From Firmicutes bacterium ADurb.Bin467 (GTDB taxonomy: Bacteria; Bacillota; Clostridia; Christensenellales; Aristaeellaceae), in assembly GCA_002068815.1 (NCBI GenBank), contig MWAC01000086.1, positions 1 to 12,090 on the forward strand: a stretch of DNA of 12,090 nucleotides, in the 5' to 3' direction. Positions 1 to 5,513 of the stretch are shown here, in pieces. The notes beneath the pieces are model-generated. The model saw only the letters and a list, made by a program, of their open reading frames with translations. It did not search any database and was not told the DNA's origin. Made by a program: the position numbers and the translations under genes. Positions within the stretch are counted from its first letter, which is position 1; each line of letters begins with the position of its first letter.

Positions 1-144
1 CCTGTTCGTAGCGCCCGCACGCGGCGAGCGCCAAGGCCGCATCCGGGGTCGGTACCGGCCCCACATGGATTCCGAAAACGCCGCGACGGCCTTTTGCAAT
101 CACGCTGGCGGCAGGGTATGAGGCGCGGCGGAACCGGAGCGAAC

Positions 145-675
145 ATGATCCTCTACCCAGCCATAGACCTCAAGGACGGCCAGTGCGTGCGGCTGCTCCG
201 CGGCGAGATGGACAAGGCGACGGTCTTCGGCACCGACCCGGCGGCGCAGGCGCGGGCCTTCGAGGCAGCGGGGTGCCGGTGGCTGCACATCGTCGACCTG
301 AACGGCGCGTTCGCGGGACGGTCGGTCAACGGCACCGCCGTCGAGGCGATCCTCGCGGCCGTCTCGGTGCCGGTGCAACTCGGCGGCGGCATCCGCGACC
401 GCGCCGCGATCGACGCCTGGCTCGACAAGGGCGTCGCCCGCGTGGTCCTCGGCACCGTCGCGGTCAACGATCCTGATCTACCGAACGTCACGGCGACCGC
501 GGCGCTCGCCGGCGCGGTCGCGATCCCGGTGATCGCCTCGGGCGGCATCGCCTCGCTCGACGACCTGCGCGCGCTGAAGGCGAGCGGCGCGGCGCTCGAC
601 GGCGCGATCTCGGGCCGGGCGCTCTACGAGGGGCGGATCGACCTCGCCGAGGCCGTGCGGCTGCTCGCGGCATGA
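145..675 (+). CDS. hisA: HisA-like phosphoribosylformimino-AICAR isomerase, internally deleted (176 aa)
   Basis: HisA is a (beta/alpha)8-barrel that isomerises ProFAR to PRFAR in histidine biosynthesis. The N-terminal half is intact: YPAIDLKDG with catalytic Asp8, the LHIVDLNGA strand, and the phosphate-binding strand QLGGGIRD at about 78-85. The C-terminal quarter is also intact: IPVIASGGI at about 127-135 and GRALYEG. Between NDPDL (about 108-112) and PNVTATAAL (113 onward) roughly 65 residues are missing. HisA is normally about 240 aa; this one is 176. The lost part should carry the second catalytic Asp (in the family's DARDG strand) and the TDIARDG region, so isomerase activity is unlikely. 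The ATG at 145 follows GGAG at 136-139 and gives the usual N-terminus; longer in-frame starts would add a non-homologous leader. The next ORF begins 10 bp downstream. Either a real deletion or an assembly join is possible. Confidence 0.85.
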
Positions 676-685
676 GGGGGATCGC

Positions 686-1357
686 ATGAGCCTCGAGGTC
701 TGGCTTGCCTTCGTCGCGGCGTCCGCCGTGCTTCTCGTCATTCCCGGGCCGACGATCCTCCTCGTCGTCTCGTACGCGCTCGGCCGCGGCATGCGGGTGG
801 CGGCTCCGGTCGCGACCGGCGTCGCCCTCGGCGACCTGACGGCAATGACGCTGTCGATGCTCGGCGTCGGCGCGCTGCTCGCGACTTCGGCGACGCTCTT
901 CACCGTCCTGAAGCTGATCGGGGCCGCCTACCTCGTCTGGCTCGGGGTGAAGCTCTGGCGGACCGCGGGCACGCCGCTCGACTTCCGAAGCGGGAGGGCG
1001 GTCGGGGACGCGGCCGCGCGCGCGGAGTTTCCCGAAATCCGCGCGGCGGGAGGCGTCGATCACTACTTCGCATGCGACGGCGAGGGCTTCCGCACGATGG
1101 CGACGCTTGCAAGCCCCGCGAGCGGGCTGACGCTTACCTGCTCGTCCGACGCGCCGGGGCTTCTCGTCTACACCGGCAACGGGCTCGACGGCGTCGCCGG
1201 CAAGGGGGGCAAGATCTACGGCCGGCACTGGGGCGTCTGCCTCGAGACCGGGCGCTTCCCGAACGCCGTCAATTTCCCCGGGCGCCGGGAGGGCGTGCTG
1301 CTCCAGCCCGGCGAGGCGTACGAGAGCGCGACGGAGTTCGCATTTTCCGCCGAATAA
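686..1357 (+). CDS. Chimeric ORF: LysE/RhtB exporter N-terminus fused to aldose 1-epimerase C-terminus
   Basis: Residues 1-92 match the start of LysE/RhtB amino-acid exporters: a hydrophobic first helix, the IPGPTILLVVSYALGRG signature, then helices to AAYLVWLGVKLWR. Such exporters are usually about 200 aa with five or six helices, and only about the first half is here. From about residue 95 the sequence becomes the C-terminal third of a galactose mutarotase: GTPLDFRSGRAVG, then GVDHYF (Asp125 in the place of the family's catalytic Asp), LLVYTGN, and CLETGRFPNAVNFP (Glu187 in the place of the catalytic Glu), ending in the beta strand after LLQPGEAYES. The two catalytic His residues of GalM lie in the missing N-terminal two thirds. 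The join falls near nt 959-973. The start at 686 follows AGGGGG at 675-680. I expect neither transport nor mutarotase activity. A designed fusion is unlikely because both partners are truncated inside their folds. Confidence 0.8.
   Translation: MSLEVWLAFVAASAVLLVIPGPTILLVVSYALGRGMRVAAPVATGVALGDLTAMTLSMLGVGALLATSATLFTVLKLIGAAYLVWLGVKLWRTAGTPLDFRSGRAVGDAAARAEFPEIRAAGGVDHYFACDGEGFRTMATLASPASGLTLTCSSDAPGLLVYTGNGLDGVAGKGGKIYGRHWGVCLETGRFPNAVNFPGRREGVLLQPGEAYESATEFAFSAE
968..1357 (+). pseudogene. galM: galM (aldose 1-epimerase) C-terminal remnant
   Basis: This is the mutarotase-derived part of the chimeric ORF, listed separately so that the broken gene is searchable. About 130 of the usual roughly 345 residues remain. 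They include the DHYF and CLET motifs, which carry the catalytic Asp and Glu in the family, but not the two catalytic histidines. It is read in frame with the upstream LysE fragment and has no start or ribosome binding site of its own. The boundary is approximate, to within about 10 bp. Confidence 0.65.
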
Positions 1358-1660: not shown

Positions 1661-2218
1661 ATGTGCGGGCGGTATTTTCTGGAACCGGAGATGAGCGACG
1701 AGGAGTGGGCGCGGATCGTCGAGGCGCTGAACCGCCGCCCGATCCCGGCGGGCACGAAGCTTGCGGGCGAGGTGTTCCCGACGGACGTCGTGCCGGCGCT
1801 CGCGGGCGGAAAGGCCGTCGCGATGCGCTGGGGGTTCACGAAACCCGTCGGGAGCGGCGTCGTCATCAACGCGCGCAGCGAGACCGCGGCGCAGAAGCCG
1901 ATGTTCCGCAGCGCCGCGCGCTGCCTGATCCCCGCCGGAGGCTACTTCGAGTGGGGCCGCGAGGACAGGGTAAAGTACGCGCTGACCGGGCCCAGCCGCA
2001 CGATCTACATGGCCGGGCTGTATCGCATAGAGGAACCCGGCGAACCCGCGCGCTTCGTGATCCTGACGCGGGCCGCCGCGCCGTCCGTTGCCTACATACA
2101 CGACCGCATGCCGGTCATCCTCGACGGAGACGCGAGACGACAGTGGCTGAATCCCGGTTCTTCCCCGGCGGAAGTGCTCAAGGGCGCGGTGGGGGAGGTT
2201 CAGAGCGCGCCGCAGTAG
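1661..2218 (+). CDS. SRAP-domain abasic-site DNA-protein crosslinking protein (YedK/HMCES family)
   Basis: SRAP proteins bind single-stranded DNA at abasic sites and form a stable thiazolidine crosslink through Cys2 once the initiator Met is removed, shielding the lesion during replication. All signature residues are visible: MCGRY with Cys2, INARSE with Asn70, GGYFEWG with Glu97, and HDRMPVIL with His147. At 185 aa it is slightly shorter than E. coli YedK (about 220 aa), but the core is complete. The start must be the ATG at 1661 so that Cys becomes residue 2; it has GGGAGGA at 1648-1654. An in-frame start at 1646 would bury the catalytic Cys. It has its own promoter and lies alone on this strand. 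Its 3' end overlaps the convergent MerR-family gene by 19 bp. The family is confidently identified. Confidence 0.95.
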   Translation: MCGRYFLEPEMSDEEWARIVEALNRRPIPAGTKLAGEVFPTDVVPALAGGKAVAMRWGFTKPVGSGVVINARSETAAQKPMFRSAARCLIPAGGYFEWGREDRVKYALTGPSRTIYMAGLYRIEEPGEPARFVILTRAAAPSVAYIHDRMPVILDGDARRQWLNPGSSPAEVLKGAVGEVQSAPQ

Positions 2219-2928
2219 ATTTCGACGGCCTTCGCGGTGAAATGCGCCGTGCCGGGGCCGCCCATCTCATCGAGGGACGCGGCAAACTCGCCGTCGCCCT
2301 CGTACATGCGCCCGAGCAGCCGCAGTATCTCCGGCGTGCAGGTGTAGAAGTTGTCGTCGATCGTCTTGCGCAACTCCGCGACCAGCTTCTGCGCGTCGCC
2401 GCGCCCCGGGTCGCCGCCGACGAGCTTCCCGAAGCCCTCGAGCACCGCCTTCATCCTCGCGGCCGCGGCCTCGTCGTCCGCCTCCGTCCGGCGCTTCGCG
2501 CGCTCGGTAAATTCCCGGTACGCGTCGCTTTCGCCCCAGGCCTCCTTCGCGCGCCGGGCGTAGTCGTCGATCTTTCTCGTGTCGAATGCGGAAAAGTCCA
2601 ATGTCTTTACTCCCAACCCCTTGATTCCGGCGGCGAGCGCGATCAGGTTTTCGAGGTGCTCCTTCTTGAGCGTCAGAAGCTCGATCTGCTGCTGGAGCGC
2701 GCGGTTGCGGTCGAAGCCCGGCGCGTCGAGCGTCCGCTTGATCTCCTTCAGCGGGAACTCGAGCTCCCGAAAAAGCAATACCTGCTGCAGACGCTCGAGG
2801 GACTCCGCGCCGTAGAGCCTGTACCCGGCCTCGGTCACGTCGTCCGGCTTCAGCAAACCCAGCCTGTCGTAGTAGCGCAGCGCCCGCGCGCTCACGCCCG
2901 TGAGATTCGAGACCTCCGAAACCGTCAT
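2200..2928 (-). CDS. MerR-family transcriptional regulator with TipAS effector domain
   Basis: Residues 1-70 form the MerR winged helix-turn-helix: VSEVSNLTGVSARALRYYDRLGLL, then the GYRLYG wing, then an ELEFPLKEIK helix. A dimerisation coiled coil follows at about 72-105. From about 125 the C-terminal half resembles the TipAS drug-binding domain (WGESDAYREF and a helical remainder ending in the FTAKAVEIYC segment). Such proteins activate their own or neighbouring promoters on binding a ligand, often an antibiotic-like peptide; the ligand here is unknown. The ATG at 2928 is preferred because a GGGAGG lies 10 nt upstream; the alternative ATG at 2937 would touch that site. The promoter has the 19-bp spacer expected for MerR control, so it is probably autoregulated. 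No exporter gene follows on this strand, since transcription converges on the SRAP gene. Confidence 0.9.
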   Translation of the reverse strand: MTVSEVSNLTGVSARALRYYDRLGLLKPDDVTEAGYRLYGAESLERLQQVLLFRELEFPLKEIKRTLDAPGFDRNRALQQQIELLTLKKEHLENLIALAAGIKGLGVKTLDFSAFDTRKIDDYARRAKEAWGESDAYREFTERAKRRTEADDEAAAARMKAVLEGFGKLVGGDPGRGDAQKLVAELRKTIDDNFYTCTPEILRLLGRMYEGDGEFAASLDEMGGPGTAHFTAKAVEIYCGAL

Positions 2929-2956
2929 CACGCACATCCCTCCCGTCGGTGGGAAC

Positions 2957-2987
2957 AGTATAAGGCCTGACGCAGTGTCAAGGTCAA
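2957..2987 (-). promoter_or_regulatory. MerR-type promoter/operator (19-bp spacer)
   Basis: On the minus strand, TTGACC (2982-2987) and TATACT (2957-2962) are separated by 19 bp. This is longer than the 17 bp optimum and is the hallmark of promoters that MerR proteins activate by DNA distortion. The spacer carries an imperfect dyad, CCTTGAC...GTCAGG, between the boxes. It lies 29-59 bp upstream of the MerR start codon, which points to autoregulation. Confidence 0.75.
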
Positions 2988-3008
2988 GCCCCGCTGCGAA
3001 TATATTTT

Positions 3009-3563
3009 TTACCACATGCTGACCGCGCCGATGCGCACGCAGTCCTCGCGGAGTTCTATGCTCGCGGATTGGGACTCCCCGTTGAAGTTGACGCCGACGC
3101 GCGCAGTCCGCAGCGCACCGTCCCGCGGCGCGCCTTCCTCGGCGGTGTAGCCGCGCCCGCGGGAATAGGTGCGCTGCATCCCGGCATAGATTCGGTCGAA
3201 CAGTTCGCCGCCGTCCTGCGCGCCCTCGATCGGAATCTCGACGTCGACTTCATTCACGCCCCCGAACAGCAGCCATTTGAGCCAGGGGGATTCGCCGTCC
3301 AGCACGTATTCGATCGAGCAGCTTCGCCCGAACGCCACCTGATTCTCATAGCGCCAGCAGACGAACGGCGTGTCCGAGAAGGGTTTCGTCGAATTAGGTG
3401 CGCCCTTGAGAAGCCGCACCGCCAGCGGCATGGCCGAGAACCGCACCATGTCGCCCTGCACGCCGGTTGCGCCGCTCCCCGTCCCGATGAAGCCGAACAG
3501 CCTGAAGCCAAGAAGCGCGATCAGCGAAGCGACAATGCAGCCGATGACGATCCACTTCCGCAT
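3009..3563 (-). CDS. Hypothetical membrane-anchored extracytoplasmic protein
   Basis: I do not recognise this 184-aa protein. The N-terminus, MRKW followed by a hydrophobic stretch to about residue 26, looks like an uncleaved signal anchor or a signal peptide. The remaining part is soluble, mixed alpha/beta in character, with an internal pair of Cys residues (FVCWRYE and GRSCSIEY) and a third Cys near the C-terminus. A Cys at residue 9 is too close to the N-terminus to be a lipobox. The ATG at 3563 is chosen because the G-rich ribosome binding site just upstream leaves about 6 nt of spacing, while the ATG at 3569 abuts it. It has its own consensus-like promoter. A short gap separates it from the MerR promoter downstream, so readthrough into merR is possible. 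Confidence 0.7.
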   Translation of the reverse strand: MRKWIVIGCIVASLIALLGFRLFGFIGTGSGATGVQGDMVRFSAMPLAVRLLKGAPNSTKPFSDTPFVCWRYENQVAFGRSCSIEYVLDGESPWLKWLLFGGVNEVDVEIPIEGAQDGGELFDRIYAGMQRTYSRGRGYTAEEGAPRDGALRTARVGVNFNGESQSASIELREDCVRIGAVSMW

Positions 3564-3662: not shown

Positions 3663-5492
3663 TCAGCTCTCCAAAATCCTAAGCACCTTCTGATACAGCC
3701 CCGAATCGAGCAGGCACTCGACCTTCGTCCCATTCTCGAGGTACTCCTCGGAGATCACGACGCCCCGATCGTGGATCAGCGACAGCGCCGCGCCCTTCGC
3801 GTAGGGCACGACGAGCTCGGCGCGGTGGCGCATCGACGCGATGCGGCGGGAGATTTCGGCCTTCAGCCGGTCGAGGCCCTCGCCGGTCTTGGCGGAGATC
3901 ACGATCGCGTCGGCGGGCTCGATGACGCCGTCGACCTGCGCGCGGTCTGCCTTGTTGAGCGCCTCGAGCACGGGCTTTCCGCAGGCGCGGTTTTCAAATT
4001 CATTTGAAAACCCGCGGTCGGCTTGCCGACTTGAAAACCTTTGGTTTTCAACCTTGCAGCCCAGCTCGTCCAGCACCTCGAACACGGTGTCTCGCTGTTG
4101 TTTGTAGAACGGGCTCGCGAGGTCGCTGACGACGACGAGCAGGTCGGCGTAGAGCGCCTCCTCGAGCGTCGAGCGGAACGCCTCGACGAGCTGGTGCGGG
4201 AGTTTTCGGATGAAGCCGACGGTGTCGACGAGCAGGCACTCGCGGTTTTCGGGAAGCGAAACCTGCCGCACAACCGGGTCGAGCGTCGCGAACAATTTGT
4301 CCTCGACGAGCACGTCCGAGCCGGACAGCGCGTTTAAAAGCGTGGACTTCCCGGAGTTCGTGTAGCCGACGAGCGCGACGACGACCTGGTCCTGCTTCTC
4401 GCGCCGCGCCCTGCGCATATCCCGCTGGCGCTTGAGCTCGTTCAACTGGTTTTCGAGGTCGTCGATCCGCTTGCGCACGCGCCTGCGGTCGACCTCGAGC
4501 CGCGTCTCGCCCGGGCCGCGCGTGCCGATGCCGCCGCCGAGCCGCGAGAGCCCCTCGCCGAGCCCGACGAGCCGCGGGAGCCGGTACTTCATCTGCGCGA
4601 GCTCGACCTGCAATTTGCCCTCGGAGGACTGCGCGCGCCCGGCGAAGATGTCGAGGATCAGCGCCGTGCGGTCGATCACGCGCACGCCGAGCGCGGCCTC
4701 GAGGTTGCGCTGCTGCGCGCCGGTCAGCTCGTCGTCGAGGATCGCCAGGTCGATCTCCTGCGCCTGGCAGTCGAGCGACAGCTCCTGCGCCTTGCCGGAG
4801 CCGATGAACGTCGCGGGGTCCGGGCGCTGGCGCTTCTGCATCTGCCGCGAGACGACGAGCGCGCCCGCGGTCTCGGCGAGGCTCGCAAGCTCGTCGAGCG
4901 ACTCCTCGCTGTCGGTCGAGATCAGCATCGCGCGCTCGGCGGATTCGGTCAGCCCGCCCTTCAAAATCGCCTGCCGGACGCGCTCCTCGGCGAGTTCGAT
5001 CTCGTGCATCCACAGCGCCTGCGGGATGCGGCCGGGCTTGACGGGTCCGAAGGTCGCGATCGAGAACTTGTCGTACTCCATCTCGCCGAGAAACGACGCC
5101 ATGATGCCGGTCGCGCGGTTGTCCGCGACGCCGACCGAGCACATCGAGTCGAACCGGAGCAGCCGGAGCGCCTGCGTGTCGACGTCGGACAGCCGCGCGT
5201 CGCCGCCCGGATGCGTGTGTATGCAGCGGAAGCCCGCGAGTCGGTCGAGGTTGCGCCGCAGGTGCAGCTCCGGCAGCGATATGCTCGAGATCGACCCGAT
5301 CGCGATCTCGAGCACGGCCCCGTTGCGGTCGAGGTAGACGAGCAGCTCCCGGTTCAGCATCGTCGTGAACCGAACGAGCGCGGCGAGCAGCCTGTCCGGC
5401 AGGTACTCGTCGCGCGGGAACTCCGCGTCGTACAGCTTTTCCAGTTCGTCCAATACGCTTTGGCGGATGCCCTCGAGATTTCCGTGAATCAT
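3663..5492 (-). CDS. hflX: GTPase HflX with N-terminal JAMM-like domain and a palindrome-encoded insertion
   Basis: HflX is a ribosome-associated GTPase that splits stalled or stress-damaged 70S ribosomes. At 609 aa it is longer than the E. coli form (about 426 aa). Residues 1-185 are an extra N-terminal domain with HTHP...S..D (His92, His94, Ser102, Asp105), the spacing of a JAMM/MPN metal site. The HflX N-terminal domain spans about 187-330, ending in RGPGETRLE, followed by a coiled coil at about 332-368. The G domain has G1 GYTNSGKST (376-384), FATLDP with Thr403, G3 DTVGF (423-427), G4 NKAD (513-516) and G5 SAK (533-535). Residues 480-502 are an A/T-rich insertion, encoded by three tandem palindromes, between the helix before G4 and the G4 strand. 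All nucleotide-binding motifs are intact. The ATG at 5492 has GGAGG 4 nt upstream; a TTG at 5513 would lie before that site. It is last in the iron-sulfur operon. Confidence 0.95.
   Translation of the reverse strand: MIHGNLEGIRQSVLDELEKLYDAEFPRDEYLPDRLLAALVRFTTMLNRELLVYLDRNGAVLEIAIGSISSISLPELHLRRNLDRLAGFRCIHTHPGGDARLSDVDTQALRLLRFDSMCSVGVADNRATGIMASFLGEMEYDKFSIATFGPVKPGRIPQALWMHEIELAEERVRQAILKGGLTESAERAMLISTDSEESLDELASLAETAGALVVSRQMQKRQRPDPATFIGSGKAQELSLDCQAQEIDLAILDDELTGAQQRNLEAALGVRVIDRTALILDIFAGRAQSSEGKLQVELAQMKYRLPRLVGLGEGLSRLGGGIGTRGPGETRLEVDRRRVRKRIDDLENQLNELKRQRDMRRARREKQDQVVVALVGYTNSGKSTLLNALSGSDVLVEDKLFATLDPVVRQVSLPENRECLLVDTVGFIRKLPHQLVEAFRSTLEEALYADLLVVVSDLASPFYKQQRDTVFEVLDELGCKVENQRFSSRQADRGFSNEFENRACGKPVLEALNKADRAQVDGVIEPADAIVISAKTGEGLDRLKAEISRRIASMRHRAELVVPYAKGAALSLIHDRGVVISEEYLENGTKVECLLDSGLYQKVLRILES
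3987..4055. repeat. 69-nt insertion of three tandem palindromes inside hflX
   Basis: Three inverted repeats lie end to end. GGTTTTCAAAT (3989-3999) pairs with 4002-4012 around TC and extends outward with one bulge. GTCGGC (4017-4022) pairs with GCCGAC (4025-4030). TTGAAAACC (4031-4039) pairs with GGTTTTCAA (4043-4051) around TTT. The outer hairpins share the GGTTTTCAA/TTGAAAACC arm. The segment is A/T-rich against a G+C-rich gene, and is 69 nt, exactly 23 codons, so HflX stays in frame. It corresponds to residues 480-502, which have no counterpart in ordinary HflX. This resembles protein-embedded palindromic elements such as the Rickettsia RPE, although the sequence is unrelated as far as I can see. 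Confidence 0.85.
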
Positions 5493-5513
5493 GCTGCCTC
5501 CGGTCCGGCGCAA

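Follow-up and report, generated by a model that had tools for sequence, protein, structure and literature searches.

Here we describe a unit of three adjacent hairpins that lies inside the hflX GTPase gene of Firmicutes bacterium ADurb.Bin467 and leaves its reading frame intact. The unit is very probably one copy of a short, non-autonomous, structure-based family of mobile palindromic elements, which inserts without regard to reading frame and of which the tolerable copies are kept; the hflX copy is most likely translated with the rest of the gene. It was found in a stretch of 12,090 nucleotides (hereafter, the window), positions 1 to 12,090 of contig MWAC01000086.1. A sequence-only reading of the window had proposed a dispersed mobile palindrome that tolerates insertion in coding DNA, and both proposals are borne out by the searches and the comparisons with empty sites in relatives that are presented below.

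The hairpin unit in hflX

The hflX open reading frame spans 3663-5513 and is matched by the Pfam domains GTP-bdg_N, GTP-bdg_M, MMR_HSR1 and HflX_C, as well as by HflX chains in the PDB. The gene and the parts of its insert are:

3663..5492, minus strand: hflX GTPase gene, likely start codon 5492-5490, stop codon 3665-3663
4056..4061, minus strand: left flank codons GGC TGC, preceding the unit; TGC occurs again after the unit at 3981-3983
3984..4055, minus strand: three-hairpin unit, 72 nt, from 5' AAGG to CGCC 3', coding in frame for KVENQRFSSRQADRGFSNEFENRA
4031..4051, minus strand: hairpin 1, TTGAAAACC-AAA-GGTTTTCAA; in the family, both-side changes in 8 of 9 pairs
4017..4030, minus strand: hairpin 2, GTCGGC-AA-GCCGAC; in the family, both-side changes in 3 of 6 pairs
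3985..4015, minus strand: hairpin 3, arms GGTTTTCAAAT/ATTTGAAAACC plus three further pairs and one bulged base

On the minus strand the unit reads AAGGTTGAAAACC...AAACCGCGCC, and it encodes residues 479-502 of the protein (P0001). The three inverted repeats noticed in the sequence-only reading are real: their arms match exactly at 3989-3999/4002-4012 (11 nt), 4031-4039/4043-4051 (9 nt) and 4017-4022/4025-4030 (6 nt), and on the minus strand the fold of 3980-4062 has an energy of -35.4 kcal/mol, where shuffles average -22.35 (z -4.13) and none of 200 folds as well. That reading had located the block correctly and cut it short, giving 69 nt at 3987-4055 and missing three bases (one residue) of the 72-nt unit; the 23 residues it counted as gained (480-502) become a net gain of 24 relative to other HflX proteins. 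The GC content of the unit is 0.46-0.47, as against 0.67 across the remaining hflX gene. The form of its third hairpin is common to two apparently intergenic copies in the same genome (L290, 585-662, and L291, 41-118), which look like the closest subfamily of the hflX copy in this genome.

The search for HflX covered 60 genomes, that of ADurb.Bin467 included, and all 60 gave some match, several of them only a weak one to another GTPase. Thirty loci were aligned, namely the present gene and 29 relatives, five of which come from the same genus (G002-G006), and the 24-residue insert is present in none of the 29, in agreement with the earlier expectation that these residues would prove unique to this HflX. 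In a sixth genome of the genus (G001), outside the alignment, the HflX matches stop at residue 478 and restart at 502. In the MAFFT alignment the gap of 24 residues is shifted leftwards by one residue from the ends defined by the unit, and the codon count at the site, compared with relatives, is consistent with no duplication. Despite the insert, the gene keeps its reading frame and, downstream, its NKAD motif, as had been stated from the sequence. In the alignment the insert falls between G3 and G4, and by the general topology of G domains this would be the loop that joins helix 3 to strand 5, the strand of G4, at a distance from the nucleotide. A single-sequence AlphaFold2 model of the GTPase part reached a mean pLDDT of 40.4 and was unusable, and the phmmer alignment to the PDB HflX chains is unreliable in the region of the insert.

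Three other genes of the window deserve a word. In an open frame at 686-1354 (plus strand), the N-terminal half of a LysE transporter (Pfam positions 2-86 of 193) is followed by the C-terminal portion of an aldose 1-epimerase (positions 194-298 of 299), a hybrid that we read as due either to a fusion by deletion or to a join made in assembly. A HisA-like protein of 192 aa at 97-672 (plus strand) matches its Pfam model in two separate parts, of which the best spans 2-111 of 228, and its middle seems to be missing, possibly through an internal in-frame deletion. The gene at 2203-3015 (minus strand) encodes a regulator of the MerR family that carries a TipAS domain for antibiotic recognition.

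Structure and dispersal of the family

A nucleotide search with the block matched 5 of 60 genomes (ADurb.Bin467 included), mostly via hairpins 1 and 2. A degenerate pattern of the core gave 63 matches in the ADurb.Bin467 genome (32 + 31) against 25 + 14 for its control, and it was replaced by covariance models. With genome counts that include ADurb.Bin467 itself, and with model-building copies that match by construction, the first model (R1, 12 copies) found 8 of 36 genomes at E <= 0.1, and the second (R2, 24 copies) found all 7 genomes of the genus, 33 of 250 genomes and 10 of 50 genera of the bacterial family at E <= 1e-4, and 5 of 297 genomes of the order, one of which (G366, single match) is not a member of the family. 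The ADurb.Bin467 genome holds at least 11 R2 matches at no fewer than 10 places, a lower bound, as are all copy numbers here, since at most the best 126 (R1), 150 (genus), 18 (family) and 15 (order) candidates were scored per genome. The block, which the sequence-only reading had wanted searched for in the genome and its relatives, is therefore not single-copy. At hflX itself (3984-4061) the models score 58.5 bits (R1) and 50.3 bits (R2), this copy being among the sequences from which they were built.

In the alignment of 24 copies, units mostly start with RAGG, end with CRYC and have three stems. Of the cells at paired columns, 92.3% are paired, and 20 of 28 pairs show changes on both sides, including 9 of 13 in the region of hairpin 3 (helices 3-5 of the alignment). 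Cells changed on both sides number 90 against 26.5 in shuffles, and the covariation score was equalled in none of 500 shuffles, which leave the relatedness among copies in place and are applied to a structure partly derived from the same sequences. Further pair types are less telling (40 observed against 33.8, a value reached in 5 of 500 shuffles). When the pairing partners are slid by 1-3 columns, pairing falls to 26.7-55.5%.

The 168 distinct units have on average 3.29 open (stop-free) frames, compared with 3.85 in their own shuffles. The family is therefore not shaped for coding, and the idea of an element adapted for read-through by avoiding stops finds no support; the shortage fits selection after insertion, and one argument for a coding-adapted element is gone.

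Contig ends are where many copies of the family are found. Judged by eye, in G006 (L116-L139), G005, G022 and G002 (L010-L028) the unit serves as a module in longer repeats that are rich in hairpins, vary in module content and often lie at contig ends. One such longer repeat of a relative (L011:1480-1880) had no match among phage or plasmid records, and the exact pattern of hairpin 3 did not occur in the viral contigs searched; a pattern scan of genome contigs gave one Bacteroidales match (L029), taken as chance. At gathering scores Rfam matched nothing in the window, and at 20 + 18 further loci it left the unit itself unmatched, finding only RNAs around the unit or apart from it. The copies in the ADurb.Bin467 genome are these, with the contig of each:

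hflX (the window): protein copy, sense to the gene
C225: protein copy in gpmI (Pfam iPGM_N, Metalloenzyme), antisense to the gene
C45 (L113): protein copy in tatD (Pfam TatD_DNase in two stretches), antisense to the gene
C312: protein copy at the C-terminal end of a DUF951 protein, two overlapping units
C39: leader copy inside a cobalamin riboswitch (Rfam RF00174, 80.7 bits), where the unit falls in the model's insertion
C17: leader copy just upstream of the Rfam-matched part of the ileS T-box (RF00230, 55.7 bits, below the gathering score of 93)
C110 and C62: leader copies upstream of rpsJ and of rimP, gene names read from translations and not from a database result
C258 and C142: copies apparently between genes

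The part of the ileS T-box leader upstream of the Rfam match is presumably stem I. Outside this genome, one copy (G021:C106, L142 422-580) directly follows a match to a group II intron domain, and that intron may carry the element too.

The tatD locus (L113 1392-2360, minus strand) has a further peculiarity, some 36 additional residues where the opposite strand reads like a segment of a CapD polysaccharide-biosynthesis protein, which we read as a template switch or a chimera. A further TatD N-terminus, with 87% identity over 101 residues, lies at the end of contig C138 (L238), stops at the contig end near the same position and has no element before the break; we read the two as alleles or paralogues in the draft.

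Empty sites and reading frame

Three other genes offer the same comparison of filled and empty sites as hflX. The insertion in GpmI is 75 nt long and absent from 23 of 23 other rows (13 genomes), in an alignment that took only the part of the query from the start codon, its open frame extending upstream of the gene. That in TatD is 78 nt long and absent from 21 of 21 other rows (13 genomes), two of the 24 loci (L228, L229) having been left out as they do not span the site. In the relative G021, a mannitol dehydrogenase carries a 78-nt insertion, antisense to the gene, that is absent from all eight aligned relatives (9 of 14 loci, L342-L350, were used). Each of the four units, of 72, 75, 78 and 78 nt, runs exactly from RAGG to CRYC, and a perfect terminal inverted repeat, the only terminal match tested, amounts to 0-1 nt.

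All four of these coding copies are multiples of three and open in the frame of the host gene. The share among delimited non-coding copies is 27 of 76, about what chance gives; these 76 include partial units and near-identical copies and leave out 13 of 89 listed places that could not be delimited. Counting codons against the empty sites leaves no target-site duplication over in GpmI, TatD or the dehydrogenase. The same triplet flanks the unit on both sides in HflX and TatD, and the flanking triplets differ in GpmI and the dehydrogenase. In TatD the 3-nt match is explained by host codons, and in HflX, less certainly, by the same; there may nonetheless have been a short duplication at these two sites, given their matching triplets.

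Scans for coding potential covered 92 and 90 places, a few of them counted twice. In the first, whose list does not include the window copy, L112, L113 and L140 are convincingly coding on both sides, and L016, L139 and L182 are marginal. In the second, two in-frame copies lie in one phage-type polA of G060 (L268), with Pfam exonuclease and polymerase matches around them and a frameshift unrelated to the element; two more lie in one frame of G153 (L284) that ends in a YodL domain; an SNF2 helicase of G021 (L239) is a weak in-frame case; and the remaining flagged places are short or coding on one side only. Most of the remaining places in relatives carry no coding flag. The contig of the polA gene (G060:C46; L268, L310) reads as prophage-like and carries the element several times.

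In two cases the copy disrupts the frame of its host gene, one a SprT-like gene of G060 (L310) and the other a RibD-like reductase of G257 (L283), and both genes look dispensable. Together with the chance share of multiples of three, these two gene-breaking copies make insertion look frame-blind.

Origin of the insert and comparison with known elements

In the explanation we propose, a unit with three adjacent hairpins would insert regardless of reading frame, in a manner for which the codon counts require no target-site duplication. Selection would then keep, in needed genes, only the least harmful copies, those whose length is a multiple of three, that read without a stop in the frame of the host and that lie at tolerant places. 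The hflX copy would be such a survivor, most likely simply translated into a polar segment of 24 residues between helix 3 and the G4 strand; for this copy we infer transposition as the cause, translation, and the position in a loop. As for a mobilising enzyme or an autonomous partner element, a search confined to the Y1 transposase domain PF01797 found it in 11 of 30 genomes, and none in ADurb.Bin467 (a 74% complete draft), G003 or G006. Since G006 has many copies and no Y1, the presence of Y1 does not track copy number, and a Y1/RAYT transposase as the mobilising enzyme is unsupported. Perhaps, although we hold this doubtful, the element spreads through a single-stranded form in which the folded three-hairpin shape is recognised, without duplication, favouring loop-tolerant places or surviving only there. 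If this were true, the same DNA module would be a peripheral protein loop in one copy and a riboswitch loop in another, a general loop-insertion module at the level of RNA and protein within one bacterial family.

The insert might alternatively be excised from the RNA, or the ribosome might bypass it where the hairpins stand, so that the protein never carries it. Precedents for hairpin-bearing inserts in coding sequence, sometimes with matching flank triplets, are the hop in gene 60 of phage T4 and the mitochondrial byp elements, and the hflX and TatD copies resemble these in both respects. The stable multi-hairpin fold, the insertions inside conserved enzymes and a riboswitch, and the matching triplets in HflX and TatD all speak for such a route. 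It would, however, make frame and stops irrelevant, yet every coding copy with an empty site is open and a multiple of three; moreover the triplets do not match in GpmI and the dehydrogenase, and the two frame-breaking copies lie in genes that look dispensable. Since frame and openness are kept, no bypass is needed here, unlike in gene 60 and the byp elements, and we regard excision or bypass as improbable.

It is similarly unlikely, in our estimate, that the unit is kept for a role in RNA, as a signal for mRNA stability or attenuation, with the coding sites as by-products. All helices covary, and copies lie in or at 5' leaders (the cobalamin riboswitch, the ileS T-box, and upstream of rpsJ and rimP as read), as such a role would suggest. 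However, a mobile DNA hairpin would also covary, the unit occurs in both orientations to the gene (sense in HflX; antisense in GpmI, TatD and the dehydrogenase), and in the protein genes, where the comparison was made, relatives lack it at the same sites.

An assembly artefact, in which a repeat was wrongly joined into hflX, is highly unlikely. The genome is a draft of 320 contigs, with many copies of the family at contig ends, a further odd insert in TatD and, towards the window's left end, one gene that looks fused and one that looks internally deleted; its incompleteness and these two genes mean that there may be some assembly error or population mixing. Against this, the insert in hflX is exactly the unit, with the frame kept and the relatives' sequence on both sides, and clean in-frame insertion is seen three more times, once in a different genome. 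Lastly, an ancestral, lineage-specific loop of HflX can be ruled out, as the residues are missing from all aligned relatives, those of the same genus included, and the same DNA unit lies elsewhere in the genome: a single copy and conserved residues, by which the sequence-only reading would have recognised such a loop, were both looked for and neither was found.

A mobile palindrome kept in frame by selection, the reading we prefer, has several known counterparts, and in the portions consulted of the open-licence literature on palindromic and small dispersed repeats we found no description of this three-hairpin element. ERIC, RUP, Correia, BOX and other bacterial MITEs include some in-frame fusions, and T-box-like motifs have been suggested in BOX (PMC2229807, PMC10969869). 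The present element is likewise a small non-autonomous mobile repeat, but compared with these it is shorter, has several hairpins and no perfect terminal inverted repeat, and its codon counts require no target-site duplication. REP and REPIN sequences are short dispersed palindromes, often multiple, with intragenic units known, and are built of single stems of 20-40 bp with a GTAG or CGTC tag; there are CGTC repeats without a known transposase, and RPE-4 and RPE-6 are counted among the CGTC repeats (PMC3733652). Our element is also short, dispersed, palindromic, multiple and intragenic, and differs from these descriptions in its fixed order of three hairpins, its RAGG/CRYC ends and the lack of a Y1 transposase among the matches in its own genome.

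The closest likeness is to the palindromic elements of Rickettsia (RPE) and Wolbachia (WPE), described as repeats of ~100-150 bp that lie in frame in protein genes, with two cases in RNA genes (PMC2229807, PMC10969869, PMC3733652, PMC3767692, PMC2694212). RPE are given as 105-146 bp long, with long stem-loops and 12-bp terminal inverted repeats (PMC2229807), or as 100-150 bp (PMC3767692), and the two RNA genes that carry them are those of tmRNA and M1 RNA (PMC2229807, PMC10969869, PMC3767692). As described for RPE and WPE, the present palindromes are dispersed, lie in frame in conserved protein genes and are absent from the orthologues (HflX, GpmI, TatD and mannitol dehydrogenase). They also share with RPE the use of sites in structured RNA, here a cobalamin riboswitch, a T-box leader and a place beside a group II intron match; insertions in a riboswitch or T-box are not among the RPE cases that PMC2229807, PMC10969869 and PMC3767692 present in the portions consulted. 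The unit here is 72-78 nt long, with three separate hairpins and no perfect terminal inverted repeat. Since length, fold and ends differ, we do not file it as an RPE, a distinction drawn from published descriptions.

Insertion of palindromes into protein-coding genes at high frequency has been described for Rickettsia and Wolbachia (PMC2229807, PMC10969869, PMC3767692), and if elements of another structure do the same in a further bacterial family, the conversion of repeats into protein is a process that recurs. With filled and empty sites for four enzymes, plus the riboswitch copy, the cost of one kind of insert becomes measurable across proteins and RNAs, and the frame-breaking copies can serve as a natural control in asking which insertions selection lets through. 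The event in hflX is of the same kind as the insertion of an RPE or WPE; what is uncommon is that the same short module is found in both proteins and regulatory RNAs of one genome.
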